DNA of 46,625 bases from a virus, in IMG/VR virus record IMGVR_UViG_3300031576_000089, positions 1 to 46,625 of that record; one strand, 5' to 3'. Position 1 is the first letter of the stretch; the number at the start of each line of letters is the position of its first letter. The notes beneath the pieces were generated by a model, which saw only the letters and a program-made list of their open reading frames with translations, did no database searches and was not told the DNA's origin. The position numbers and the translations under genes were made by a program. Below are positions 1,676 through 40,817 of this stretch, piece by piece.

Positions 1676-2308
1676 ATGGCACAAATTCTCGGTTTTGACG
1701 GCGCCACATTATTGAAAGTAGATAGCGGGTCAGGCGCAGGGCGGATCACGCATTACCGCTCCGATGGGATCGAATCGAATCTCTCGATGGACGGCGGATA
1801 TTTCTTGGGCTTCGAGATCCGGCAGACCGGCACCGGCGCCGCACCCTTGACCGTCTGGGCGATGCGAAACGGCGGGACCAAAGTGGTCTATATTCGCCGG
1901 ATCCGCGGTTACATGATCTTCGACGGCACGGCCGGGGCTGCGACGAAACGGCAGTACCAGTTTGCCAGATTCTCCACGGCGACGCCGACCGGAGGCACGT
2001 CCATTCTGGCGAATATCGTCAAGCGCAGGTCAGGAGATGCTTCCACGACGATCACGGATGTGCGCTTCGTGGACACCGGCCTAACGGTTGGTGGCGTGGT
2101 ATTCGAGGCCGCGTTCCAGCAACTCGCCATTCCGATCTCCGTGACCAGCATGATTATCCCGTTCGATTTCCAATATAAGCAGGCCAACGATCCCCGCGGA
2201 GAATTTCAGTTGGCGATCAACGAGGGGGTGTGCATCCGGACCTTGACGGATGCCGCGACGGTGGGCCAGGGGATCTACGGGACGATTGAATGGGACGAGA
2301 AAACCTAA
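1676..2308 (+). CDS. Beta-rich virion protein, paralogue of the 13170 gene
   Basis: 210 residues preceded by AAGGAG at 1663-1668. Gly/Thr-rich, predicted all beta. The C-terminal part (AINEGVCIRTL, then a W-D/E strand) resembles the C-terminus of the 13170-13877 product (AQNEGISIRGTV, then a KW strand), so the two look like distant paralogues, perhaps head decoration or tail-tip beta-sandwich proteins. Exact role unknown. Its end overlaps the next gene at 2290. Confidence 0.6.
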   Translation: MAQILGFDGATLLKVDSGSGAGRITHYRSDGIESNLSMDGGYFLGFEIRQTGTGAAPLTVWAMRNGGTKVVYIRRIRGYMIFDGTAGAATKRQYQFARFSTATPTGGTSILANIVKRRSGDASTTITDVRFVDTGLTVGGVVFEAAFQQLAIPISVTSMIIPFDFQYKQANDPRGEFQLAINEGVCIRTLTDAATVGQGIYGTIEWDEKT

Positions 2309-2481
2309 CGACCTGTCCGCGCTGTGGCGGGTGTTGTGCGGTGGATTTTCAGATGGTGCATGATTTGGAAGAGCGTGATTTGCCGGTCGTGTTTCATGGG
2401 GTCGTGCCGACCTATTGCCTCAACTGCGGCTGGAGGAGTCAATGTTCCCATGTACCGCCTGCGGCGCTTGTTGCCGCATGA
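2290..2481 (+). CDS. Small zinc-ribbon protein
   Basis: 63 residues with CPRCGGC near the N-terminus and CLNCGW near residue 43, a standard four-Cys zinc ribbon. The ATG lies inside the last codons of the previous gene, giving a 19-base overlap. The product may bind nucleic acid or protein and lies directly upstream of the terminase ATPase. It is one of roughly twenty Cys-knuckle miniproteins in this genome. Confidence 0.6.
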   Translation: MGRENLTTCPRCGGCCAVDFQMVHDLEERDLPVVFHGVVPTYCLNCGWRSQCSHVPPAALVAA

Positions 2482-2487
2482 CGATAA

Positions 2488-3132
2488 ATGTACGAAACGG
2501 CTGAGTCGGTCGCGGAGCGCACGCTTCGCAGCTACAATGGCCGGCTCGAAGAATTGATCCTGGACACCGGATGGTTTCTCACACGCGACGAACACCGAGG
2601 CGACGAGATTCATCCCCTGCCGGCCGATCTGCCAGGCCTGCGGGCGTTGCTCCAGCTCTATCAGACCGAGCGGATGATCGTCTTGACGAAAGGCCGGCAG
2701 TTGAAAGTGTCGTGGGGAACGATGGCCTATCTTTTGGCGCAGGGCCTCATGCACGAACACGAACTGGAGATCGTGCAGACCAAGCGCGAGGAAGATGTGG
2801 AGAACCTACTGGAGCGGGCGCGCTTCATGTACGATCACTTCCCGACATGGCTCCAGGCGATCCGGCCGCGGATCTCCGGCACGCGGGAGCATCGGCTGAA
2901 GATCGAGTTTGCGGACCGCGATACGAAGATGTGGGGGATCCCGCAGGGCGCGGACGTCATTCGCTCCAATACGGTCACGCGGTATTTCAGCGACGAAACG
3001 GATTTCCAGCCGGACGCCAAAGCCTCCCTGCGCGCCGCCGCGCCGTCGTTGGGCGATACGGGGCAGGCGATATTTGTCAGTACGCCCGAGCTAGGTGGCC
3101 TGGTCGGGCAATTAATCAAGGGTGAATGGTGA
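2488..3132 (+). CDS. Terminase large subunit, ATPase half
   Basis: 214 residues. Deviant Walker A region KGRQLKVSW at 68-76, like terminases with KSRQMMVSW-type motifs. An adenine-region-like QTKREEDVENLLERA follows at 97-111. Walker B is RYFSDETDF with DE at 169-170, and the coupling motif is FVSTP at 196-200. The frame stops 14 residues after the coupling motif, where terminases normally continue into the RNase H-like nuclease. That domain is encoded separately at 3520-4701. Two small ORFs lie between, so the enzyme is either a two-chain protein or interrupted by an inserted element. Confidence 0.85.
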   Translation: MYETAESVAERTLRSYNGRLEELILDTGWFLTRDEHRGDEIHPLPADLPGLRALLQLYQTERMIVLTKGRQLKVSWGTMAYLLAQGLMHEHELEIVQTKREEDVENLLERARFMYDHFPTWLQAIRPRISGTREHRLKIEFADRDTKMWGIPQGADVIRSNTVTRYFSDETDFQPDAKASLRAAAPSLGDTGQAIFVSTPELGGLVGQLIKGEW

Positions 3133-3520: not shown

Positions 3521-4701
3521 TGGCGAAGATGGACTACCCCATATCGGTGACGCAAAAGCTCTGCATGCGATGTGGGGAGACAAAGCCGGCCTATCAATTC
3601 TGCCGCAATCGGCAGTCTAAAAGCGGCCTCCAGACCTATTGCAAGACGTGTCAGTTTGCCGAGCGCAACCCCAAACCGCCCCTGCCGACGATCCCCGCAT
3701 CGAGCGTTCCGGCACTTGATTCGCTCGAGCAGTATCCGATGAGCGAAGTGCCGCCAGGCATCTTGAACGGCGTCAAGGTGCCGCGCCAAGTGCATTCGCC
3801 GTGCGCCGGCATGTGGACGTGGCGGAACAAGAAGAATTGGTGCGTGATCGCGCTACACCATTCTTCGGAGCCGGCAAAGATGGCCGGCACGCCAGCTGGC
3901 GACGCTTGGATCAAGCAAGAGAAGGCGAAGTGTTCCGAGCGCGATTGGTTGCGTGAGCATCAGTTGGACTTTACCATCCGGACTGGCGACCCGTTTTTCA
4001 GTAAGTTCAACCGGGCCGTCCATGTGCAGCCGTGCGAGTACGATCCGGACAAGCCACTGATTAGGGGATGGGACTTCGGACGTGCGCGGCCGGCCTGTGT
4101 GTGGGCGCAACTCTCCGACAAGAATCAACTCCGTATCCTCTCGTCGTATCTCGGCAAGGCAATCAATATCTTCGATTTCGCGCCGGTCATTGTCGCTATG
4201 ACGAATGCCAAATACCCAGGCGCGAAGCTCACGGACTACGGGGATCCGTCCGGCGCGCAGGAAACCGACAAGGGCGCGACGACCGCGATCCTCCTTCATC
4301 AATTCAAGATCAAACTGCACTTCCGGTTCTCCTACGTTGAGGAAGGCTTGAAGCTCATGGAGCAACGGCTTCTCATGGATTCCTCCACCGGAGAGCCGGG
4401 CCTGATTATCAACTCGCAGGACAATCAGGATCTCATTGACGGCTTCGCGGGGGGCTATGTGCTGGATACCGGCGCGTCTGGCAAGGACAACGAGGGCCGA
4501 ATGAAAAACTCTCCGAAGAAGGACGGCTTCTACGAGCATCTGATGGATGCCGCTCGCTACTTGCATATCGGGCTGTATTCGCTCATGCCGGCCGGATCCG
4601 AGGACGATGAGCCATGGAAGGGTATTGGGCTGTGGCGTAGCAACGACCAGCACGCGGCGCATAAGCGCGATCGGGATAACGTTGGAGAATTTTGTACATG
4701 A
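3520..4701 (+). CDS. Terminase nuclease half with N-terminal zinc finger
   Basis: 393 residues. Residues 15-46 form CMRCGETKP, a GLQTY turn and CKTC, the zinc finger usually seen in phage HNH endonucleases. A Pro-rich linker at 50-80 follows. From about 85 it matches the second half of a large terminase, with RNase H-type acidic residues D185 (RGWDFG), D242 (YGDPSG) and D343 (LMDAARY). The ATPase half is at 2488-3132 in the same reading frame, separated by about 390 bases containing stops. Translation could also begin at an internal ATG at residue 74 (MSEVPPG), which would drop the finger. Confidence 0.85.
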   Translation: MAKMDYPISVTQKLCMRCGETKPAYQFCRNRQSKSGLQTYCKTCQFAERNPKPPLPTIPASSVPALDSLEQYPMSEVPPGILNGVKVPRQVHSPCAGMWTWRNKKNWCVIALHHSSEPAKMAGTPAGDAWIKQEKAKCSERDWLREHQLDFTIRTGDPFFSKFNRAVHVQPCEYDPDKPLIRGWDFGRARPACVWAQLSDKNQLRILSSYLGKAINIFDFAPVIVAMTNAKYPGAKLTDYGDPSGAQETDKGATTAILLHQFKIKLHFRFSYVEEGLKLMEQRLLMDSSTGEPGLIINSQDNQDLIDGFAGGYVLDTGASGKDNEGRMKNSPKKDGFYEHLMDAARYLHIGLYSLMPAGSEDDEPWKGIGLWRSNDQHAAHKRDRDNVGEFCT

Positions 4702-4814
4702 GAGAGCCGGCCTTCATCGCATTCATCTGGATCCTGAATCTCGGTCTGGCGATGGCTCTGTTCCTGTTCTGGAACGCAAACCGGGCCGCGGAGTTCATGT
4801 GGAGGTTCCATTGA
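4698..4814 (+). CDS. Single-pass membrane miniprotein
   Basis: 38 residues starting in an ATGA overlap with the terminase stop. Residues 5-25 (AFIAFIWILNLGLAMALFLFW) form one transmembrane helix and a short basic tail follows. The next gene starts in a TTGA overlap at its stop, so it is embedded in a coupled chain and is probably real despite its size. Function unknown. Confidence 0.5.
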   Translation: MREPAFIAFIWILNLGLAMALFLFWNANRAAEFMWRFH

Positions 4815-5125
4815 AATTCTGGCCGTTCAAGTGCGCCTCTTGTGCCGAGAAGGAACGGCTGATCGAAACGCTGGCGCAGGATGTCCTGCACGCCAGGACA
4901 GAGGTAGAGGGAGCGCGTGTCCGGGAACAGTCGGCCGTCAATGCACTCCTCCAGTGGCAACTAAAGCCACAGATCCATACTCCCTCGAAGATGATGCGGA
5001 CGGAAGCCGAACAAGCCCATAAGCAAGCCTTCGGGTTTTTCAAGGACGAGCTGGATGATGGTAAAGGCAACATTCTGGAGGCCGACCAGTTTCCGGAAGG
5101 TGAGCCGGTACGGACGATAAATTGA
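4811..5125 (+). CDS. Coiled-coil protein with CxxC start
   Basis: 104 residues from TTG 4811, chosen because GGAGG at 4801-4805 is five bases upstream and the start overlaps the previous TGA. It opens with FKCASCAEKERLIETL, then a helical, probably coiled-coil, stretch to about residue 70, and an acidic C-terminus. No family recognised. It lies between terminase and portal, so a packaging or portal-associated role is possible. Confidence 0.5.
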   Translation: MKFWPFKCASCAEKERLIETLAQDVLHARTEVEGARVREQSAVNALLQWQLKPQIHTPSKMMRTEAEQAHKQAFGFFKDELDDGKGNILEADQFPEGEPVRTIN

Positions 5126-5310
5126 CAATACAGGCATCTGTTGATACAAGTGCGCTAAAGGAGCGGTTAGCTCCACTGGTCGAAAAGTATCCGCGGTATT
5201 TTATGTTGGTGGCGAATTTCCTTGGGCGAGATCGCGCATGGGGCTATATCCAACTCAATCGTGGAGGTAAAGACGAAGTAGAGTGGGCTGAACACTATAC
5301 GCACAGATAA
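5122..5310 (+). CDS. Small hypothetical protein
   Basis: 62 residues from TTG 5122, which overlaps the previous TGA, the third TTGA junction in this arm. The N-terminus is helical and the C-terminus is rich in aromatic and charged residues (WGYIQLNRGG, EWAEHYTHR). No recognised domain. It is followed by the hairpin at 5335-5368, so it ends this group of genes. Confidence 0.5.
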   Translation: MTIQASVDTSALKERLAPLVEKYPRYFMLVANFLGRDRAWGYIQLNRGGKDEVEWAEHYTHR

Positions 5311-5334
5311 GAGCAGGCCAAACCGGATAACGAC

Positions 5335-5374
5335 AGGCTTGTTGGGGAGCGATCTCCCTGGCAAGCCTTTTGTA
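5335..5374 (+). terminator. Intrinsic terminator or attenuator before portal
   Basis: AGGCTTG at 5335-5341 pairs with CAAGCCT at 5362-5368. An inner GGGAG / CTCCC stem closes a CGAT loop, and TTTTGTATTTT follows. The structure ends only about ten bases before the portal ATG, so it may attenuate readthrough into the virion genes as well as terminate. Confidence 0.6.
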
Positions 5375-5378
5375 TTTT

Positions 5379-7607
5379 ATGGGCGAAACAGACAAATCAG
5401 ACAAGGGCATTATCCAGATGGCGGACGATCATCACGATCGGACCCGCTATATGCGCTACGGCTTCGAGCGCGACTGGTACGCCAACCTCCTCTACCGGCA
5501 AGGGCATCAGTGGATCGTGTGGGATGGGATTGCGCGTCGGTTCCGCCAGAAGCAACTTAAATCCTGGGTGCCGACACCCGTTACCAATAAATTCGCCTCA
5601 TCGCTCGATGCGCTGGTATCGCTGGTTCTCCGGGTGCAGCCGGAGATGATGTGGAAGCCGACCGATCCCAACGACGAGGAACAAAAGTCGCTAGCTGAAA
5701 CCTACACGAAAGCAACGGAGCTGGCGAAAGAGCGCACGCTGTTCCGGTTCTGGCGCCATGAGGCCGCTCAGTGGATGGTCTACACCGGCAACGCCTTCCC
5801 GGTCACGTTCTACGATCCGAAAGGCGGATCAGACATGAGCGTGCCGTACCTCAAGTGTGACGTCTGCAATTACGAGGAGATGCCGACCGCGTTTGAGCAG
5901 GGCTGTCCTCAGTGTGAAGGGACCAATACCAGCTATGTGCTTGAGAACGGGATCCCGAAAGAGGAGAAGTTCAAGGGCGGCGAGCTGATTACGGAAGTCG
6001 GCACGCCGTTCGAGATGTTCTTCGATTTCACCGTGACGCGCTGGCAGTTTCTCCAGGAGATCCAACGGATCAAACATCGGCCGGTAGACTACTTCAAACG
6101 GTACGGACCTCGCGGGAAGAAAGTGCAGGCCGGCAGTCCATCCACCATCTCTGAGTTTTATGCCGGTACGCTGGCATATCTCTCGGGATCTCCAGGCATC
6201 GTATCCGGCGCAGCCTCGGCCGGGAAGAATCCCACGGCACCGGAGCATCTATACCTCCGCAAGCCCGACGACGATTTCCCCAACGGCCTCTACCTGATTT
6301 ATTCCGGCGACACCATCCTCGAGAAAAGCGATCTGCCGTGCAAGGACGTCTACGGCAACTACATTCTGCCAGTCAACCATCTCTGCTTTGATCCTATCCC
6401 TGGTTGTGCGCTCGGGAAAACGGTCGGCAACGATCTGCGTCCGAAGCAAAAGCAGCGGAACGAGCTGGAGTCGCTGATCCAGTTGATTACGATGCGCTGT
6501 GCGAATCCGGTGTGGATTGTCCCCTACGGCACCGACGTCGAGGGATTCAGCGGAGAGCCTGGCGCCGTACTGAAGTCCATCCAGATCACGCCGAACGCCT
6601 CCGGGGAGCCGCGCCGGTTGGCAGGAGAGAACATTCCCTCCTCGCTCATCGAGTGGATGAAAAACATTGACGCCGACTTCGAGGAGATCACGTCCATCTA
6701 CGACGTGCTGAAAGGGCAGACGCCTCCTGGGGTGACGGCCGGCTATGCGATCCAGCTCTTGACCGAGCGCGGACAGTCGCGGTGGGGTCCGTTGTTCCAG
6801 CGATGGGAGAACGGCCACACCGATTGGGGCATGGTCGTCACGTCGTATATCAAAAACTATATGCCGGCTGAACAGCTCCGGCTGATGCTCGGAGAGCATG
6901 GCGAATGGGATCTCGAGAAGTTTAAGAGCGATGATCCGATTCGCATGACCCTGACGGTCGAGGCAGGGTCCACGAAGCCGCAGTCCGCGCTGGCCGAACA
7001 AGCCCTGATTGATAGCGCGATCGAGAAGGGGCTGATAGATCCCACGGATCCGGCGAACAAGTCGCAGCTCTTACGTTCGATGGGTCTGAGCCGCTTCGAC
7101 AATCAATCCGATTGGGACATGAAGGACGCCGCTCGAGAGGAAGAAGCCTTCCTACAGATCGCCGCGCAAGTGGATCTGTCGGCCGTCTATCAGAAGATGG
7201 CGTTTGCCGAGGAATCGGGTGACATTGAAGGGATCCAAACGTTGATCGCGGAAGTGAAGAAAACCGAGGAAGTGGCGATTCGCTTCCGTCCTCAGATTGA
7301 CAACAACCTCATCCATCTCTGGAGCCACAAGCGGTTCGCCAAGACCGACAAGTTTCTCCAGATGCCGGCCGAGTGGCAAGCCGTCTGGATGCAACACGTC
7401 GAGGCCACGGCGCAGCGGATCATGCAGGAATCCATGATGGCCGCAGGGATGGGGCAGGAACCGGGCCAGCCGGAGCCGGCCGGTCCTCCGAAACAGAACG
7501 CCGGTCCGCCGAAGCCGGCACAACCCGGTCAGCCGTCGAATGTGGCCGCGTCCCCGCAAGGTGGACACGCGCCGAGTCCGTTGGCGATGCAACCCGCGAT
7601 TCCCTGA
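5379..7607 (+). CDS. Portal protein
   Basis: 742 residues from ATG 5379; a second ATG at 5418 (MADDHHDRTRY) is possible. Size, position after the terminase, and the core (NKFASSLDALVSLVLRVQP, later LLTERGQSRWGPLFQRWE) fit podovirus-type portals, the dodecameric ring through which DNA is packaged. An inserted zinc ribbon near residues 160-180 (CDVC and CPQC) is unusual for portals. The last about 45 residues are Pro/Gln/Gly-rich and disordered. The next gene starts inside its stop codon. Confidence 0.85.
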   Translation: MGETDKSDKGIIQMADDHHDRTRYMRYGFERDWYANLLYRQGHQWIVWDGIARRFRQKQLKSWVPTPVTNKFASSLDALVSLVLRVQPEMMWKPTDPNDEEQKSLAETYTKATELAKERTLFRFWRHEAAQWMVYTGNAFPVTFYDPKGGSDMSVPYLKCDVCNYEEMPTAFEQGCPQCEGTNTSYVLENGIPKEEKFKGGELITEVGTPFEMFFDFTVTRWQFLQEIQRIKHRPVDYFKRYGPRGKKVQAGSPSTISEFYAGTLAYLSGSPGIVSGAASAGKNPTAPEHLYLRKPDDDFPNGLYLIYSGDTILEKSDLPCKDVYGNYILPVNHLCFDPIPGCALGKTVGNDLRPKQKQRNELESLIQLITMRCANPVWIVPYGTDVEGFSGEPGAVLKSIQITPNASGEPRRLAGENIPSSLIEWMKNIDADFEEITSIYDVLKGQTPPGVTAGYAIQLLTERGQSRWGPLFQRWENGHTDWGMVVTSYIKNYMPAEQLRLMLGEHGEWDLEKFKSDDPIRMTLTVEAGSTKPQSALAEQALIDSAIEKGLIDPTDPANKSQLLRSMGLSRFDNQSDWDMKDAAREEEAFLQIAAQVDLSAVYQKMAFAEESGDIEGIQTLIAEVKKTEEVAIRFRPQIDNNLIHLWSHKRFAKTDKFLQMPAEWQAVWMQHVEATAQRIMQESMMAAGMGQEPGQPEPAGPPKQNAGPPKPAQPGQPSNVAASPQGGHAPSPLAMQPAIP

Positions 7608-18229: not shown

Positions 18230-19435
18230 ATGGGCCAGGATCTTGCCGCAGGACTGAGCAACTACCACACTACCGGCACGCCGGATACCGGCACGCCACA
18301 GTCTAATGGGCCAAGCGGATCCGATGGGGTGGCAGAGAACGTCAACGGCCTCTACATCGCGGTCCCGGCTCTCCAAACGCTCCTCGGTAACGCGCTCACA
18401 CTGAAAGGATCCGTTGCGGATCTTGTCACGCGCCTGTCTCGAGCGATCTCGGCCGATGGGGTATTGCCGAAAGGCACGTCGTTCCCGGCCTCTCCGATTG
18501 ACGGCCAGTTGTTTTATCGTACCGACCAGGATATTCCGTACGTCTATGATTCTGGATCCGGAACGTGGAAGCCAGGTTTCGATAACGTCCTCTATGCCCT
18601 GCTCGATGGCACGCGCAATTTTACAGGCGATGTGACGATCAAGAAGGCCGCGCCGGGTGTGCGGTTGATAGGGACAGAGGGGAGCGCAAAGGACGTCCTG
18701 ATTCGTGAAAGTGCCGGCGTAGTCACGATCTCGAAGAATACCGGCACAGAGCTTTCACCAGTCTGGACAGAAATGTTCCGTGTAGAGATGGCGGTTGGAT
18801 TCTACACGCCGAAAACGCGAGTCGTCTATACGGCCAATGACAACTTCACGGTGCCTGCTGGTGTAACGTCTATCCGTGTCAAAGTATACGGAGCGAGTGG
18901 AGGAGGAGGAGGAGGCGGCGGTGGTGGTGGGAACACTTCTGGATTTGGCTTCAAAGGCGGCGATGGCGGTATTGGACAACGCGGTGTTCGCGGAGGGTAC
19001 GGAGAAGATGTTTTTGTTGTTACGCCTGGAACGATTTATGCGGTCACAGTTGGAACGTCCTCTGGTGGTGGTGGTGGAGCCGGTGGAGGCGGCACCGGAG
19101 GAACTGGTACAACTGGTGGAACTGGTGGTACGTCTAGTCTAGGGGCATTGATTTCTGCAACTGGTGGCGGCGGGGGGGGCGGCGGGGGCGGAGGAACGGA
19201 AGCGACTGCATGTGCTAATGGAAGTCCTGGGAGTGCGCAAGAAAATAGATTTGAAGATTTAACATTAACTCTAGGAACGTCCTCTGCATCTATCAACTTG
19301 AAGGGGGGAGCAATCGAACCCGGAGGCAATGGTGGAGCTGGAGGAGCCGGGAAGCCTTCAGGTCAAACCGGCTCTGGCGCGGCTGGTTCTGCTGGTGCGA
19401 ATGGAGAATCTGGCATGGTGATCGTGGAATACTGA
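18230..19435 (+). CDS. Tail fibre with Gly-rich C-terminal domain
   Basis: 401 residues. The N-terminal part (to about 150) is polar and includes GQLFYRTDQDIPYVYDSGSGTWKP, a common phage fibre motif. A strand region VVYTANDNFTVPAGVTSIRVKVYGA follows. From about 222 on it is extremely Gly-rich, like polyglycine-sandwich tail-tip adhesins and other Gly-rich receptor-binding domains. The DNA contains a G8 run at 19172-19179, a candidate for slipped-strand variation. It likely mediates host binding. Confidence 0.75.
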   Translation: MGQDLAAGLSNYHTTGTPDTGTPQSNGPSGSDGVAENVNGLYIAVPALQTLLGNALTLKGSVADLVTRLSRAISADGVLPKGTSFPASPIDGQLFYRTDQDIPYVYDSGSGTWKPGFDNVLYALLDGTRNFTGDVTIKKAAPGVRLIGTEGSAKDVLIRESAGVVTISKNTGTELSPVWTEMFRVEMAVGFYTPKTRVVYTANDNFTVPAGVTSIRVKVYGASGGGGGGGGGGGNTSGFGFKGGDGGIGQRGVRGGYGEDVFVVTPGTIYAVTVGTSSGGGGGAGGGGTGGTGTTGGTGGTSSLGALISATGGGGGGGGGGGTEATACANGSPGSAQENRFEDLTLTLGTSSASINLKGGAIEPGGNGGAGGAGKPSGQTGSGAAGSAGANGESGMVIVEY

Positions 19436-24044: not shown

Positions 24045-27000
24045 ATGGCGAAGCGGATCCTGACGCCAGAGGAAGAATTTGATCTCGCCCATCGCGCCTA
24101 CGAAGCGGAACGGCTTAAGCGTGCGATGGGTGGCGAGATCCCCCCACTGCCAGTCACACCTGAATGGCAAAAATCCACCAGCGCGCTCTTTGGCGACTGG
24201 CTGACCAGCCGGCCAGGAGCGATCTACGACACCCTCAAGGAAGGGGCGAAATACTGGACGTCCAGCCCCTACCGTGCGCTCGAGTTTCCAGCAGAATTAC
24301 TCAGCCATGTAGCCGTTCCAGCCACTCGCGGAGGCGAGGTCATTGACGAATTGATCGGGACTCCGGAAGGGACCGGCTATCAAACGCTTGGTGAGGCAGG
24401 CCGGAAGATCGGCGGGAAGCTCCACGAAAAGGCGGTCAAGTACGGCACAAAAGCCGGTGGCTACGAACCGTCAACCGCGCTGGCGCTGGCCGGATCGCTG
24501 AAATGGCCATGGCCTGGTCCAAAGCCGGTCGGCACGGCCGAGAAGTTCATTCCGACCCTCAAAGAAGCCACCCCGCTCATCCGTGAAACGGCCAAAGGTG
24601 GTGCGGCCGGGACCGGCTATGGGGTGTTGGCGGATCCCGAGAATGCCGGCGAGTGGGGGGCATTTGGAGCGGCCGGACAACCGATTGTCGGGCGTTTGGC
24701 CGCTGGCAGACTGGCCGCGTCCACCGTGCGGAAACCTCCAGAATCGGCCTCTGGCACGGTCATCCCTGAGATCTGGCCCACTGAGCCTCCTCCGAAGCCG
24801 CCAGCCCCACAGCACCGAGAAGTGCCTCTCCAGGCACCCTCAGAACGGCCACTGGAGCCTGAACCGACCCTTTTTGAGCGTCCAGAGGCGCCGGCCGAAC
24901 CACCCACAGCCAGCACCGAAGATCTTGTCCGGGAAGTGTTGCAAGAAAGCCACACTCCAGAGCTTCCTCCAATGCCGGCCGGAGAGGGGTTTCCAGCCGC
25001 AGAACAGCCGATTGCCCCTCATCGGGTTTACGGTCAGTCATTGCTGAATTTCATCCGGAGCAAGGGTGGGATTGCCGGCGATCGAGGCGACGTCCGGGGC
25101 ATGGAAATCCCGAACCTGCTCAACAACAAGCGGGGGCTTCCGCTGGATACCATCGCAGAGTTGGCCCAGGAAGCCGGGTATATTCCTGAGCGGAACATAA
25201 ACCAGCTCCTCGAGGCAATTGACCGTGAGGCACGCGGGAAGGCCGTCTACGCGCCAGGCAAGGAGAATGCGCGCTTGCTCGAGCAACAGATGGAACAGGA
25301 CTATGCGCGCTACCTGCGGGACCGGCCGGCTGAACCGATGTCTCCAGAAGAACCGGCCATGACAACGGCCGAGCTTGTGCAGCAGATCATTGCCAAACTG
25401 GACGAGGAACCGGTGCGCGGATTGTCCATGCGCGATCGGTTGCCGGATGATGTGGTGGACGTCCAGGAAATCACACGTGGCGCCCCAACGGTCGAGGAGA
25501 TTCATTCCCTGGCGCAATCGAAGGGGATCCGCACCGACAACGATCCGGTCTTTATGGATCTGACGGAACGCCTGACCGGGAAGCGGCACTTGGACGACCT
25601 GACCGCCGATGAGCGCGTGCGTGTGCTGAACGAGATCGAAGCCACTTCGCCACAACCCATGCCCGGAGAACTTTTCCCCGGATCCGAAACGATGGAAGTG
25701 GGGGCCGCACCGATCATCGGCCGAGAGGCGACGCTGGAGGAAGCCCCGTTGTTCTCTAGGCAGGCGCAGACGCCGGAGCCGGAGCAAGTGCCGTTGGCTC
25801 AAGCTCCAGATGAGCGCGTAACTAAATTTATGGAGCTGGCAAACTTACAACGTGGAGAACCTGAGTCCGCCATGCTTCGAGTCCAAAAAGCGATGAGCGG
25901 TGGCGTCCTCAGTCATACAGCCGAACACGTTGGCGACCTGACGAATCGCATGACGAATCTGGCGAAGTGGGGAGGATCTGGATGGGAGAATGTTCGTGAA
26001 AAGCTGGACAAGACTATCAAAACGCTTGACCATCCATACGGGTTTGCAAGGGAACACGCCGAAAATATAAAAAACAATGCGGAGTATTTCAATGTTCCCG
26101 TTGAGCAATTTGAAGCTAGAGTGGATGCAGCCCTAAAGGAATACGCTGACGCGCATCGTGCGCTTCCTGTCTACAATGAAGTGCAGCGTCTTGCGCGTGA
26201 CGCGGCCGTAGCGGTTGGAGAGAAACGATGGGAAGATGCCTCAGATCTTCTCCATACACTCAGCGATAAAGCAAAAACTCCTGAACAATTCGCACGCGAA
26301 GCAGAGAAGTTTGAAACTTCCGTTGCGCCGAAGGCTGGACTTCCCGACGAATCTCCCATGTCCGAGGCCGGCCAGGTGCAGCGCGAAGTGTCGCACGAAA
26401 CCAACGAGAACCGTTCGTTGCTGGAGCGGATCACGGAGGATCTGAACGACGAGGGAGGCGGTATCCATATCGGCACGATGGGGCCGCTGGAGAAAACCGT
26501 GCTGACGCCGCGCCGGATTGCCGAACGGCATCCAGAGTTCAAGCCGGTCTACGAGCTGGCGTCCCAACGCTCGGAGTTCTCCCATGCGATGAGCAGCGAC
26601 CTGCACGAAATCGGGGCCGACTACTTCCGCCTGCCGGAAGCCGACCGGAAGATCCTCGATGCGTTCCTTCGCACGCGCCGGCGCATGGGAACGGAAGGGC
26701 CGCAAGGCACGATGTTCCCGAAAGAGATGGGTGAGTTGCCGGAGCGGTTGAAGCCGGCAAAGCAGGCGATGGACCGGATGATGGATTCTGCTTGGCAGCT
26801 CATCAACGACGTCCGGGGAACGAAAGGCATGGCGCCGATCGAGCGCGATGAATACTACGTGCCGTTCTCGAGATCCGGGGATTATCTCGTCGTGGCGAAA
26901 GGCCAGAACGTGCCGAAGTGGGTCACAGCGGCCAAGACCTTCCGGGAGGCGAAGCAGATTGCAAAGGATCTGCAAGCCAAGCATCCGACTGCCCAAGTGG

Positions 27001-28979
27001 ACGTCAAGAGCGCCAGTCACCGCAAGGGCGATCTGCCGGCATTGGATTTCGGCACGCTCCACCAGCTTGAGAAAGCTGGCTTCCTCTCGCCGGAGGATCT
27101 GGCGCGTGCGATCGAGGAATTTGATCTGCCCCCTGGCTTCTCCGAACACTTCCGCAAGGCCGAGCTGGTTTTGGGCGAGGCGACGGATCTCCTGGATCCC
27201 ATCGAACGCTATCTGCACGGCATCTCCGCCTACGCCGGCCGGTTCCTGTACGACGAGCGCATGAACGAAGCGGCCTCGAAGATTCTGGATCCAGAATTGC
27301 GGCCCTACAGCGACCGCTATATCAAATACCTCAACGAGAAGCCGCGGGAGTTCGGCCGGATCCGCGGGGCGGTGGCGACGTGGGATCTCATGCTCAATTT
27401 TGGCAGCATCATGCAGAACGCTTCTCAGGTGCCGTTGCTTGGCGTGCCGATGCTGGAATCGCTCGGCCACTCGAAGATTGACGCGGTGAAGTTCATCGAA
27501 ACTGGCTTCCAGCGCAATCTGAGCAAGGACAAGCCGGTGACGATCGGAGACTTCACCTACACGCCGGCCGACGTGCTGGAGCGCGCACAGCGGGAAGGGC
27601 ATATCCGGCCGGTGAACGCGGAGGAATTGTTCGGTACGATTGGCGTAGAGCCGTTGGGGGTGGAGTTGGGAGATCCGACGCTCTACAAGACGTTGCCCTC
27701 TCAAGCCTACAATGCGATCGAACAGCCGCTCTACGCGGTCACCGGCGCGCTCGAGAAGGGCTACGATCGGCTGTCCCATGCGAATCGTGCGCTCGGCCAG
27801 AAGCTCAGTTACGCCTTCAGCCGACTGACCGGCAAGACGACGGAGATTGCGGCCGACAAAGCGCGAGTGGCGCATGGCGCCGGAATGCAGGGCTTCGCTT
27901 GGATCGAGGAGAACAACCGGGCCGCGTCTATTCTCGGATCCTTCGAGGCCGGACTATCGAAAGGGATGGATCCCGGGCTGGCCTATACCTTCGCCACGCA
28001 GTTCTCCCGCGACGTGAATTTCGACTACTCGCCGGTTTCGCGCGCACCGGCCTTCCGTGGGATCGGCGCGCCGCTCGGTCTGTTTATGACGTTCCAGACG
28101 GAGTATATGTCCACGTTGAGCAAGCTGGCGAAACAACAGCTCAAGGCGGAAGGCATCACCGGGAAGGCATTGGGGCCGGCCTCTACCGCGCTGGTGGCCT
28201 TCTGGACGCTCGGTGGGATCAAGGGTCTGCCCGGCATGGAGGATCTGGACCTGTACGGACTCGGCGGTACGCTCTCGAGGAATCTGCCGGATCTGCTCTG
28301 GCAAGGGCCGGCCAGCACGATCACCGGACTGGACGTGGCGAGTAAGTTCAAGCTCGGGCCGCGCCTGCCGATAGATCCGCTGCACGGCGAATTGGATCTC
28401 TCGCAGTTGGCGATCGCGGATCCATTCTTCAAGGCGATGAAAGCCAGCCAGTGGTATGCGGATAGTCCGAAAGATCCGCCGTCCACGCAACGGCTGGTCG
28501 AGCGGATCCTGCCTCCGGCCGCACGCAACCTGTTTGAAGCCGGCCGATGGGCTGGCCTAGGACCGCTCGGGGAGCTGGAGCAGGGGGCAGTCGGCACGAT
28601 TCGTGGCCATACACCGGGGCCGACCGATGAAGGCAAAAAAGAGTTCTTCCATCCGTCCGCAAAAGATATTGCCGGCAAAGCTCTCACGTTCACGCCGCTG
28701 GAGCTGTCGAAGCGGTATCAACGCGGCCGGCTGGAGAAGATCGAGGGCGTGAAGCATCGGGCCGAACAGACCCGCGCCGTCATGGAGGCCGCGAATCATC
28801 TGGATCGCAACGGGCCGAATGTTCCAAACGAAGCTCTCCGGAAACTCTCGCCACAGACACGCGCCGCACTCCTCAAGGCGCACGGAAAGAAAATGGCCGG
28901 CCGGGAGAAGGCCAGCACCTACCAACTGTTCCGAGAGAGCCAGGAGCCGAAAGCCAAACAAGCTGCCGGGCAGAAGTAA
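24045..28979 (+). CDS. Giant polyvalent virion protein
   Basis: 1644 residues, the largest gene. The N-terminal part is membrane-associating and helical. Residues about 290-420 carry a domain recurring in phage and plasmid polyvalent proteins (GQSLLNFIRSKGGI, LDTIAELAQEAGYIPE). A linker (about 430-590) and an A/T-richer helical stretch (about 590-765) follow. The last 800 residues resemble large polyvalent protein-associated domains (WDLMLNFGSIMQNASQVPLL, LFMTFQTEYMSTLSK). By place and size it is the large ejection protein, injected with DNA, possibly carrying effector domains. I see no transglycosylase motif. Confidence 0.65.
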   Translation: MAKRILTPEEEFDLAHRAYEAERLKRAMGGEIPPLPVTPEWQKSTSALFGDWLTSRPGAIYDTLKEGAKYWTSSPYRALEFPAELLSHVAVPATRGGEVIDELIGTPEGTGYQTLGEAGRKIGGKLHEKAVKYGTKAGGYEPSTALALAGSLKWPWPGPKPVGTAEKFIPTLKEATPLIRETAKGGAAGTGYGVLADPENAGEWGAFGAAGQPIVGRLAAGRLAASTVRKPPESASGTVIPEIWPTEPPPKPPAPQHREVPLQAPSERPLEPEPTLFERPEAPAEPPTASTEDLVREVLQESHTPELPPMPAGEGFPAAEQPIAPHRVYGQSLLNFIRSKGGIAGDRGDVRGMEIPNLLNNKRGLPLDTIAELAQEAGYIPERNINQLLEAIDREARGKAVYAPGKENARLLEQQMEQDYARYLRDRPAEPMSPEEPAMTTAELVQQIIAKLDEEPVRGLSMRDRLPDDVVDVQEITRGAPTVEEIHSLAQSKGIRTDNDPVFMDLTERLTGKRHLDDLTADERVRVLNEIEATSPQPMPGELFPGSETMEVGAAPIIGREATLEEAPLFSRQAQTPEPEQVPLAQAPDERVTKFMELANLQRGEPESAMLRVQKAMSGGVLSHTAEHVGDLTNRMTNLAKWGGSGWENVREKLDKTIKTLDHPYGFAREHAENIKNNAEYFNVPVEQFEARVDAALKEYADAHRALPVYNEVQRLARDAAVAVGEKRWEDASDLLHTLSDKAKTPEQFAREAEKFETSVAPKAGLPDESPMSEAGQVQREVSHETNENRSLLERITEDLNDEGGGIHIGTMGPLEKTVLTPRRIAERHPEFKPVYELASQRSEFSHAMSSDLHEIGADYFRLPEADRKILDAFLRTRRRMGTEGPQGTMFPKEMGELPERLKPAKQAMDRMMDSAWQLINDVRGTKGMAPIERDEYYVPFSRSGDYLVVAKGQNVPKWVTAAKTFREAKQIAKDLQAKHPTAQVDVKSASHRKGDLPALDFGTLHQLEKAGFLSPEDLARAIEEFDLPPGFSEHFRKAELVLGEATDLLDPIERYLHGISAYAGRFLYDERMNEAASKILDPELRPYSDRYIKYLNEKPREFGRIRGAVATWDLMLNFGSIMQNASQVPLLGVPMLESLGHSKIDAVKFIETGFQRNLSKDKPVTIGDFTYTPADVLERAQREGHIRPVNAEELFGTIGVEPLGVELGDPTLYKTLPSQAYNAIEQPLYAVTGALEKGYDRLSHANRALGQKLSYAFSRLTGKTTEIAADKARVAHGAGMQGFAWIEENNRAASILGSFEAGLSKGMDPGLAYTFATQFSRDVNFDYSPVSRAPAFRGIGAPLGLFMTFQTEYMSTLSKLAKQQLKAEGITGKALGPASTALVAFWTLGGIKGLPGMEDLDLYGLGGTLSRNLPDLLWQGPASTITGLDVASKFKLGPRLPIDPLHGELDLSQLAIADPFFKAMKASQWYADSPKDPPSTQRLVERILPPAARNLFEAGRWAGLGPLGELEQGAVGTIRGHTPGPTDEGKKEFFHPSAKDIAGKALTFTPLELSKRYQRGRLEKIEGVKHRAEQTRAVMEAANHLDRNGPNVPNEALRKLSPQTRAALLKAHGKKMAGREKASTYQLFRESQEPKAKQAAGQK

Positions 28980-38547: not shown

Positions 38548-39491
38548 GTCGGCATGATACCCACGTCCATATTCCAGACTTTCTTTCCGTCCTTCCTGTC
38601 CTGCCACTGGCCGGTGATAATGTATTTCCCCACCAACACCTTCTCCCGGCCCTTGAAGTGTTCCTTGCGCCAGTCGTTCAGTTCTTCCCGTTCCTTGTGC
38701 AGAGGATCCAGCATATACAGCCGGTCCAGCTTGGCCTCGGCCTCGGGATCGTCTGAGACTTCCATCGCCTGACTGCGAAACTCCGGCGCGCAGATATGGA
38801 GAAACTTGCAGTCGCCACAAATGCTTTCGGAATAGGGAATTGCCGGAGGAACCGTGCCGGCTGCAACGTGCGCGTTGACCTGTTCACACTTCTTGAGGAG
38901 CGTTTCGGCGTACTCCATGTCCAGCACGATAAAGACTTCCTTGAGCTGGCCGTTCACCTTATTCTTGAAGATGAACATACCGACCTCGACGCCTTCGAGG
39001 AGATTGTAAACCGTGAGCTGCGCCGGATATTTTTGGTGGTAGTGCTTCTTGGATGCCAGCATATCGGCCATGCTGCTGATCTTCTCGATTGCATACGGCG
39101 AGGCGGATTTCACTTCCAGCGGGAGTGGCTTCGACAAGACCATGAAGGGCCGCACTTGTTCGGGCGCGGCGTCTATCATCCATTGTTCGGTGACGATCTT
39201 GCCGTCAATGGAGCCGGTGAGCTGAAACTTCGGCCAGGAAAAGGCGCGCTGCTGTTCGATAACCCGGATCCCGGCGTCGTCCAGTTCGCGCAAGACGGCG
39301 CGCTCATGGAGGTTGCCTTCATCGAAAATGTATTGGAGGTCTACGTCGTGCAGGATCGCTTCTTTCCAGCGCGTGCGGAGAAACGTCAAATACCGTAAAC
39401 ATGGGTGTCCAAGCTCACTCGCCCGGTTGGAATGCACCGGCCACTGTTCGATCTTCTGCTGCTTGCGCGCTGTTATTCTCTCGATAAACAT
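38544..39491 (-). CDS. Cas4-like PD-(D/E)XK exonuclease
   Basis: 315 residues from ATG 39491. SELGHPC with C31, acidic residue D96 (LTGSIDGK), E126-x-K128 (LPLEVKS), Q158 in the QLTVY motif, and CGDCKFLHIC (C225, C228, C234). Together these match the RecB/Cas4 nuclease core with a four-Cys iron-sulfur cluster. It probably resects DNA ends to supply the annealing protein. Its 5' flank is the whole GGNNN array 1, whose final units GGCGA GGCTC double as ribosome-binding site. Confidence 0.8.
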   Translation of the reverse strand: MFIERITARKQQKIEQWPVHSNRASELGHPCLRYLTFLRTRWKEAILHDVDLQYIFDEGNLHERAVLRELDDAGIRVIEQQRAFSWPKFQLTGSIDGKIVTEQWMIDAAPEQVRPFMVLSKPLPLEVKSASPYAIEKISSMADMLASKKHYHQKYPAQLTVYNLLEGVEVGMFIFKNKVNGQLKEVFIVLDMEYAETLLKKCEQVNAHVAAGTVPPAIPYSESICGDCKFLHICAPEFRSQAMEVSDDPEAEAKLDRLYMLDPLHKEREELNDWRKEHFKGREKVLVGKYIITGQWQDRKDGKKVWNMDVGIMPT

Positions 39492-39496
39492 TTTAA

Positions 39497-39786
39497 GAGC
39501 CTCGCCGTACCATGCTGGACCCAATCCCACCTGACCGAACACGGCCTAAGACTGCCGTGCCTTAACTCACCAAACCATACCCCACTCTACCGAATCCCGC
39601 CCTGACACGACCGACCCGACCGAACCATAACTCGCCCCACCTAACCATTCCATGCCAGGCCAGATCCTGCCGGACCTAACCGCGCTCTACCGGAGACTGC
39701 CACACCATACCTCTCCAAATCCTAGCTTGCCTATCCAGTCCTTGCCACGCCCAAACAGACCGGACCTTTCCTATCCATGCCGCGCC
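39497..39786 (-). repeat. Period-5 GGNNN array 1
   Basis: On the leftward strand, 58 consecutive five-base units without insertion or deletion. By hand count 42 begin with GG, and most of the others keep one of the two G. Units vary: GGCAT GGATA GGAAA, then GGTTA GGTCC and so on. The array fills the entire space from the stop codon of the 39788 gene to the ribosome-binding site of the nuclease gene. Every run of intact units fits a two-tetrad G-quadruplex pattern. Confidence 0.9.
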
Positions 39787-39787
39787 C

Positions 39788-40393
39788 CTAATCGAATTTG
39801 ACGACGGCGAACCGTCCGTAGCTCGGACGAAAATCTCCGACCCCGACCAGCCGGCCGGCATTGTTCACGACTTGGATGAGCAATTCCCGGCTGATATATT
39901 CCGGCAGATTGATCGTGAACTCGAACGACGCCTGCCAGCCTTTATAGAAGGCCGGACGCACGCGGTTGATTCCGTTCTGCTGAATCACGACGCGCCGCTT
40001 ATCGAGGTAATCCCACTCCTTGCTCCCCAAGCTGGCAAGCTCGGTGTCCATGACGATCCCAGCCTTAAACAGATCCATCGCGCTCTTGCGAGGACTGCGC
40101 GGATCCTGGACAAACTTCGCGGCCTTGATAATCGCCTGCCGCAGATATTCCCCCGGCAAGCAGATCTCGTTGGCCTTGTTCCGATAGACGTAGGATTCGA
40201 CATTATCGGTTTTCTTGCTCTTGCTGCCCTTCGCGGATGCGGCCTTCTCGTCCATCGCTTCCGCGTTCCATGCGTGAAACAACAGCGCGGCGGTTCCCTC
40301 GATCGTCACTTTCACCGAATAGGGTTCGCCGGATTGCACCGCGGCCTTCGCACCGTTGCTGGCCGGACCTGTTGCTGGCATCAATTTACCCAT
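39788..40393 (-). CDS. Conserved phage protein of unknown function between GGNNN arrays
   Basis: 201 residues, AAGGGAG before ATG 40393. A strand (YSVKVTIEGTAALLFHAW) is followed by a Lys/Ser-rich insert, then ICLPGEYLRQAIIKAAK, QDPRSPRKSAMDLFKAG, and a C-terminal AGRLVGVGDFRPSYGRFAVV. I recall relatives in phage recombination regions. The late Gly-rich GVGDFRPSYGRF loop after a beta-alpha-beta unit is reminiscent of RAMP-type RNA-binding folds, but this is speculation. It is flanked by array 1 downstream and array 2 upstream. Confidence 0.75.
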   Translation of the reverse strand: MGKLMPATGPASNGAKAAVQSGEPYSVKVTIEGTAALLFHAWNAEAMDEKAASAKGSKSKKTDNVESYVYRNKANEICLPGEYLRQAIIKAAKFVQDPRSPRKSAMDLFKAGIVMDTELASLGSKEWDYLDKRRVVIQQNGINRVRPAFYKGWQASFEFTINLPEYISRELLIQVVNNAGRLVGVGDFRPSYGRFAVVKFD

Positions 40394-40421
40394 CTGCTCT
40401 CCCTTCTATTGTTAAAGGCTC

Positions 40422-40546
40422 ACCGAACCACACCGGACCTCAACCTGCCCATCCCCAACTCAGCGTGCCATGCACAACCTAACCGCGTCGTACCCCGCCC
40501 GGCCTTACCACGCCCTGCCTAGCCAGAGCCTTCCCTGGACTGCCAA
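40422..40546 (-). repeat. Period-5 GGNNN array 2
   Basis: On the leftward strand, 25 units in unbroken register, 18 of them starting GG (for example GGCTA GGCAG GGCGT GGTAA). It starts six bases after the CCA end of the tRNA-like element and ends about 28 bases before the start of the 39788-40393 gene, whose ribosome-binding site follows. Same strand and period as array 1. Confidence 0.9.
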
Positions 40547-40551
40547 AATTG

Positions 40552-40630
40552 GTAGCGGGGGCAAGTGGTTTCACCTTGCGACCTCCTGAGTATGAGCCAG
40601 GCGAGCTACCGTCGTTCTCCCTAGCACGCT
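40552..40630 (-). tRNA. tRNA-Met(CAT)-like gene, divergent or degenerate
   Basis: 79 nt ending in ACCA. Anticodon arm CCTGG / TCAGG with loop CTCATAC gives T33, CAT and A37. The variable region AGGTC, D-loop ending GGTA and 3' CCCCGCT ACCA resemble bacterial initiator tRNA. The A11:T24 pair also fits initiators. Oddities: two acceptor mismatches (positions 5 and 7), a D-stem mismatch, and a nine-base T-loop GTGAAACCA in place of TTCRANY. Its 5' end overlaps the stop codon of the upstream gene. It may be a functional but odd tRNA, a decayed tRNA or a tRNA mimic. Confidence 0.5.
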
Positions 40631-40817
40631 ACTCTAATTTCTGTCGGTTCAATTCATTGTTCATCAGCTTGCGGAAACACTGTCGGCAAAGATCGTGCTG
40701 CTTCATGTACCGATGGTGCGTCTTGTAGCTCCGGGGATTGCGAACCGGATGCACCTGAATCTTGATCTCGTTGCCGCACGCGCAATACTGCTTCTCCTTG
40801 CGGAGATGCTTGGACAC
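40629..40817 (-). CDS. Basic zinc-ribbon protein
   Basis: 62 residues from GTG 40817; a longer frame to 40904 overlaps the upstream gene fully. CACG at 12-15 and CRQC at 44-47 with Lys/Arg/His between. The stop codon overlaps the 5' end of the tRNA-like element by two bases, so processing of that RNA would cut this message at its end. Confidence 0.5.
   Translation of the reverse strand: MSKHLRKEKQYCACGNEIKIQVHPVRNPRSYKTHHRYMKQHDLCRQCFRKLMNNELNRQKLE

Follow-up and report, generated by a model that had tools for sequence, protein, structure and literature searches.

In class 1 CRISPR effectors, RNA-guided recognition proceeds with periodic unpaired bases, and a five-base period is found in the RNA bound by the trp RNA-binding attenuation protein (TRAP), an oligomer whose repeated motif is (G/U)AG. 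VIPR is an RNA-guided phage system related to CRISPR, combining an ancestral RAMP protein with RNAs termed vrRNAs (bioRxiv, April and June 2026; PMC13142463). According to the preprint, each vrRNA comprises 9-16 pentamers of the GGY/NN type, in which NN base-pairs with DNA while every unit passes over one base of the target; Vipr itself is a RAMP of about 20 kDa having an RRM-like core with a G-loop, and other features include a structured, invariable 3' tail carried by every vrRNA and an accessory gene, vap (PMC13142463). Seven types are distinguished there, acting by transcriptional repression and with rival phages as natural targets (PMC13142463). GGY was kept in all 137 vrRNAs inspected from the SUSP1 and P. 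fulva clades, a rule that the same text does not state as required of all seven types, and its disturbance abolishes silencing (PMC13142463).

The window analysed here is a stretch of viral DNA of 46,625 nucleotides, in which a sequence-only reading had pointed out an array of five-base units and had known of no named element like it. Such an element is described in the VIPR preprint (PMC13142463), and the anonymous pentamer array can now be placed in the VIPR class: it is held with high confidence that this is a VIPR locus and that its arrays are guide-RNA arrays, because of the identity and fold of the Vipr protein, the association of similar arrays with vipr genes (81/120), the GGY/NN code and a 22/22 target match. 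The closest described system is VIPR type II (Escherichia phage SUSP1, Pseudomonas fulva prophage), with which the locus shares a RAMP of about 20 kDa, homologous over almost its full length, GGY/NN pentamer arrays flanking vipr, the 1-nt skip code, and a coding-sequence target in a rival phage gene with the skips on wobble bases. Type II has separate vrRNAs with a structured tail, whereas in the window 58 units run on continuously in one register; no vap gene is identifiable, and the gene that comes next looks like an ordinary Cas4-domain exonuclease. Unlike the SUSP1 and P. fulva clades, the window contains units without GG (16/58 and 7/25 in the two arrays). The 11 units of the matched guide fall within the 9-16 repeats of a vrRNA, and the larger array would hold several guides serially; staggered, overlapping arrays occur in other VIPR types (PMC13142463).

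The resemblance to class 1 CRISPR effectors lies in the Csm3/Cas7-type RAMP fold. Unlike those systems, the window carries neither cas1/cas2 nor direct repeats with spacers, and guide information is non-contiguous. A repeat search of the window returned no CRISPR-type identical repeats, and the ORFs scanned contained no cas families except the Cas4-domain phage exonuclease. TRAP differs in its motif, is an unrelated protein and carries no guide information.

Two pentamer arrays and the gene between them

Read on the minus strand, array 1 (Table 1) consists of 58 five-base units with zero indels in a single phase, of which exactly 42 start with GG, compared with 14.7 ± 1.5 (maximum 22) in 2000 dinucleotide-preserving shuffles. 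The GG autocorrelation is 30 at each of lags 5, 10, 15 and 20, whereas the shuffles give 10.8 ± 2.9 at lag 5. The uninterrupted run of units, about 42 of them with GG, and the lag-5 signal expected by the sequence-only reading are both borne out; its five-base register also stands, but its GGNNN composition has to be revised to GGYNN, base 3 being C or T in 52 of the 58 units. Bases 4-5 are almost random. Sixteen units (28%) do not begin with GG, mostly with one G missing, and a pyrimidine occupies base 3 in all 16. An exact-pattern search of the phage's own genome did not pick up the array because of this degeneracy.

Array 2, missed earlier, sits on the opposite side of the vipr gene, and both arrays and the gene they flank are on one strand. 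GG opens 18 of its 25 units (7.8 ± 1.0 in shuffles) and is absent from 7. Its end resembles that of array 1, GGCGAGGCTCTTAAAATG, the two sharing the form GGYGAGSCT..TTAA. No Rfam family was matched by the arrays, and sigma-70 promoter and terminator scans recognised none within them.

Table 1. Features of the locus, in coordinates of the window
Feature	Position	Strand	Remarks
Cas4-domain exonuclease gene, 315 aa	38544..39491	-	PHROG 1990
Array 1 (vrRNA array), 58 in-register GGYNN units	39497..39786	-	between vipr and nuclease gene
Putative last vrRNA guide, array 1 units 46-56, 11 units	39502..39556	-	NN match 22/22 bases in L213, 1-nt skip rule
Inferred guide, array 1 units 33-43	39567..39621	-	13-unit spacing of GGYGA-GTTWW-like junctions
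Inferred guide, array 1 units 20-30	39632..39686	-	13-unit junction spacing
Inferred guide, array 1 units 7-17	39697..39751	-	weakest of the four
vipr gene, 201-aa Cas7-type RAMP protein	39788..40393	-	PDB 36pp; Csm3/Cas7 fold; PHROG 4652
Array 2, 25 in-register GGYNN units	40420..40544	-	upstream of vipr; ends GGTGAGCCTTTAACAATA
Possible guide, array 2 units 13-23	40425..40479	-	21/22 match in HNH endonuclease gene, L214

By sequence comparison and structure prediction, the 201-aa product is a RAMP of the Vipr family. In a phmmer search of the PDB, it matched 36pp, "SUSP1 Vipr protein" (E = 1.2e-8), and a profile of 40 homologs matched a 36pp chain over almost the full length (E = 4.2e-40) and nothing else. 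An AlphaFold2 model with a pLDDT of 90.9, for which only the window and IMG/VR loci served as input, was matched by Foldseek to Csm3/Cas7 subunits of type III and VII CRISPR complexes (E 3e-7 to 1e-5, probability 1.00). The homologs share a conserved Gly-rich motif, GRLVGVGDFRPSYGRF. The PHROG family matched has no assigned function, and Pfam and NCBIfam returned no match. The neighbour had previously been taken for an annealing protein, an assignment that the 36pp profile match and the Csm3/Cas7 fold overturn; the accompanying ideas that the spacing itself is kept and that the array is partnered by a neighbouring protein hold, with Vipr as the partner.

A search of related phages for such repeats had also been proposed. 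When IMG/VR was scanned for (GGNNN)12, no protein information being used, at least 120 stretches were found, and a Vipr homolog is encoded in 81 of the 120 listed, a fraction that may be an underestimate because many stretches are short fragments. The pattern can therefore serve as a simple vipr detector. Across the listed Vipr loci the unit is GGYNN, with GG lost in about 10-12% of in-register units, compared with which the window stands at the degenerate end. The closest Vipr relatives among the listed matches (53-62% identity) have long in-register arrays, up to 141 units. Arrays of relatives occur downstream of vipr too, and some contain internal junctions that preserve register, such as GGCATGGCGATATCTGG in L129.

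The array of about 130 units at L129:4620-5275 has in-register junctions GGCATGGCGAYNTNTGG that are irregularly spaced, and one phase shift near unit 66. Loci L023, L081, L091, L095 and L014 have an architecture unlike that of the window: their arrays, of about 9-16 units, are linked by a junction that recurs (e.g. GGCAGGC, TAATGG, CGTTCA) and causes a shift of register. Megablast of positions 1-25000 against a phage collection revealed no DNA-level relatives, and blastn of 39450-40650 against the same collection gave short matches only.

Candidate targets of the guides

Every 11-unit window of both arrays was compared, under the 1-nt skip rule, with both strands of 2.4 Mb of sequence. The sole clear outlier was array 1 units 46-56, matching 20/22 bases in L008, with nothing comparable at skip 0 or 2; the site lies inside ORF 1982-3007(-), a Cas4-domain exonuclease gene of PHROG 1990. 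In relatives of this gene, the same motif matched at 19-21/22 in about 50 loci. An exact IMG/VR scan with units 46-55 then returned one contig, L213, in which the match extends to 22/22 over units 46-56 at skip 1; with skip 0 or 2 the guide scored no higher than 18. Outside the match, both bases disagree in each of units 40-45 and one base in unit 57, which delimits a guide of 11 units. The site reads ASVIGHPCDRYLW and lies in frame in an exonuclease ORF (4536-5639; PHROG 1990 Cas4-domain exonuclease, E = 1e-95), with all skipped bases at codon wobble positions.

With 400 permutations of the guide searched against the same 3.9 Mb, the best match was 19/22. Of three 18-base patterns taken from the arrays, two had no match in IMG/VR and the third had one, counts from which the expected number of chance 22-base matches would be well below 0.01. 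The exact 11-unit target of units 46-56 was absent from GTDB bacterial and archaeal genomes. Genes on L213 run in the order Sak4-like annealing gene, second small gene, exonuclease, so that the matched site lies in a recombination module, about 100 bases from the start of the nuclease gene. The matched motif is conserved across a large nuclease family, and L213 is therefore only a candidate for the rival. The window's own nuclease belongs to the same PHROG as the target gene, and the best match of units 46-56 in the phage's own genome (15/22) is at its corresponding motif, SELGHPCLRYL. This new natural guide-target pair from metagenomic phages gives independent support to the published one-base-skip code. 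An all-against-all search with the arrays of other loci (2600 sampled of 4368 windows) yielded, beyond the targets of the window, one match of 20/22, from L122 to L026.

For the rest of array 1, a tail-like junction GGYGA-GTTWW occurs at unit 30 and again at unit 43, and the end sequence GGCGA-GGCTC-TTAA follows at unit 56; this spacing of 13 units suggests 11-unit guides separated by 2-unit junctions. Units 46-56 are the only guide with a firm target: IMG/VR target searches with the putative guides at units 20-30 and 33-43 found none, and eight selected viral records yielded none even when three mismatches were allowed. Units 13-23 of array 2 match in frame in the L214 HNH endonuclease gene, with 9 exact units and 21/22 bases over 11 units. 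This gene is a possible second target, but the match is kept as suggestive only, because IMG/VR is so large that an 18-base match could well arise by chance, and one of the three such patterns did match. The HNH endonuclease ORF, L214:1001-1579 (-), overlaps an intein-like insertion in a terminase-like gene.

The arrays would be transcribed from the minus strand to give vrRNAs with guides of about 11 GGYNN units, a length shown for one guide by its target match and presumed for the others. Following the model in the preprint, Vipr may oligomerise along the RNA with, probably, one subunit for each pentamer, in which GGY would be held and NN displayed (PMC13142463). Of every three bases in the target, two would pair with an NN and the third would be skipped. 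The last guide of array 1 would address the start of a rival phage's Cas4-domain exonuclease gene, most likely blocking its transcription; since the skipped bases fall on wobble positions, few silent mutations would offer the rival an escape.

Loss of GG and competing readings of the arrays

A 28% loss of GG while the pyrimidine, the register and the target match persist is unusual for VIPR. In the matched guide, 4 of 11 units lack GG, and given the GGY requirement in the preprint it could be weakened or decaying; its GG loss may reflect either a relaxed scaffold or early decay. We tentatively propose, at somewhat short of even confidence, that the scaffold in this clade consists of five-base spacing plus the pyrimidine, that GG is optional in about one-quarter to one-third of units and guides with 4/11 non-GG units function, that guides follow head to tail in one register (11 units plus a 2-unit junction), and that they target the rival's version of the phage's own nuclease, the own copy differing at the guide site. 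The locus offers a test case for the strictness of the GGY scaffold and for the way in which a phage avoids hitting its own homologous gene.

A variant of the VIPR reading, not an alternative identity, is that the array once had GGY throughout and is now decaying, its function lost. The excess of GG loss over the 10-12% of other loci would be explained in this way, but 58 units have not acquired a single indel, the pyrimidine is kept in every non-GG unit, and a guide with four such units still matches its target completely, so that this variant is considered unlikely.

It is very improbable that the arrays are autoregulatory leaders, in which a ring- or filament-forming protein would bind its own mRNA at the GG repeats, controlling translation of the flanking genes. 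The five-base period does run in the mRNA sense, and the leaders of vipr and of the nuclease gene each contain an array, but the fold and sequence match of Vipr would be left unexplained, as would the fact that the variable bases fit a rival gene at 22/22 positions, the skips lying on its wobble bases; moreover, the arrays of relatives are far longer and are also found downstream of vipr. Least credible of all is a DNA element (recombination hotspot, G-quadruplex or replication origin) for the neighbouring recombination proteins, for which the adjoining exonuclease and the frequent company of Sak4, SSB, RusA or RuvC and helicase genes in relatives could be cited, but against which stand the agreement of array and vipr strands, the conserved pyrimidine and hypervariable NN, a predicted RNA folding energy no better than that of shuffled sequence (z = -0.24), the association with vipr among the listed stretches and the decoded target.

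The G-quadruplex, TRAP-like leader and recombination-hotspot readings were accordingly rejected in favour of VIPR. Among the roles offered by the sequence-only reading, recombination hotspot and replication start left no sign of either, while an RNA role gains indirect support from the strand-constant arrays, the published VIPR mechanism and the decoded target; of a riboswitch there was no sign.

The neighbouring nuclease and genome context

The gene next to array 1 had been described as Cas4-like, in agreement with its match to a Cas4-domain exonuclease family. It is probably the phage's own recombination nuclease and not a dedicated VIPR accessory protein. Five relatives of this exonuclease (L001-L005) had no vipr in the DNA stretches examined. 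In this clade vipr is often found among Sak4, SSB, exonuclease, RusA or RuvC and helicase genes, and for that reason the neighbouring nuclease may be ordinary.

In L104, L021, L059, L008, L129 and L062, vipr and its arrays are embedded in recombination modules (Sak4, SSB, exonuclease, RusA/RuvC, helicase, RecT-like) and do not form a separate two-gene locus. Elsewhere in the window, a portal protein is encoded at 5370-7607 (+), its only near-full-length relative being in a Manatee Spring phage (MW202554, 32%). A 1644-aa gene at 24045-28979, with a PLxRFG-domain match below the curated cut-off, contains an antisense open frame of 544 aa (26241-27875, -). Short G-rich tandem repeats with periods of 3-12 cluster at 18899-19191, inside the coding region 18230-19435.
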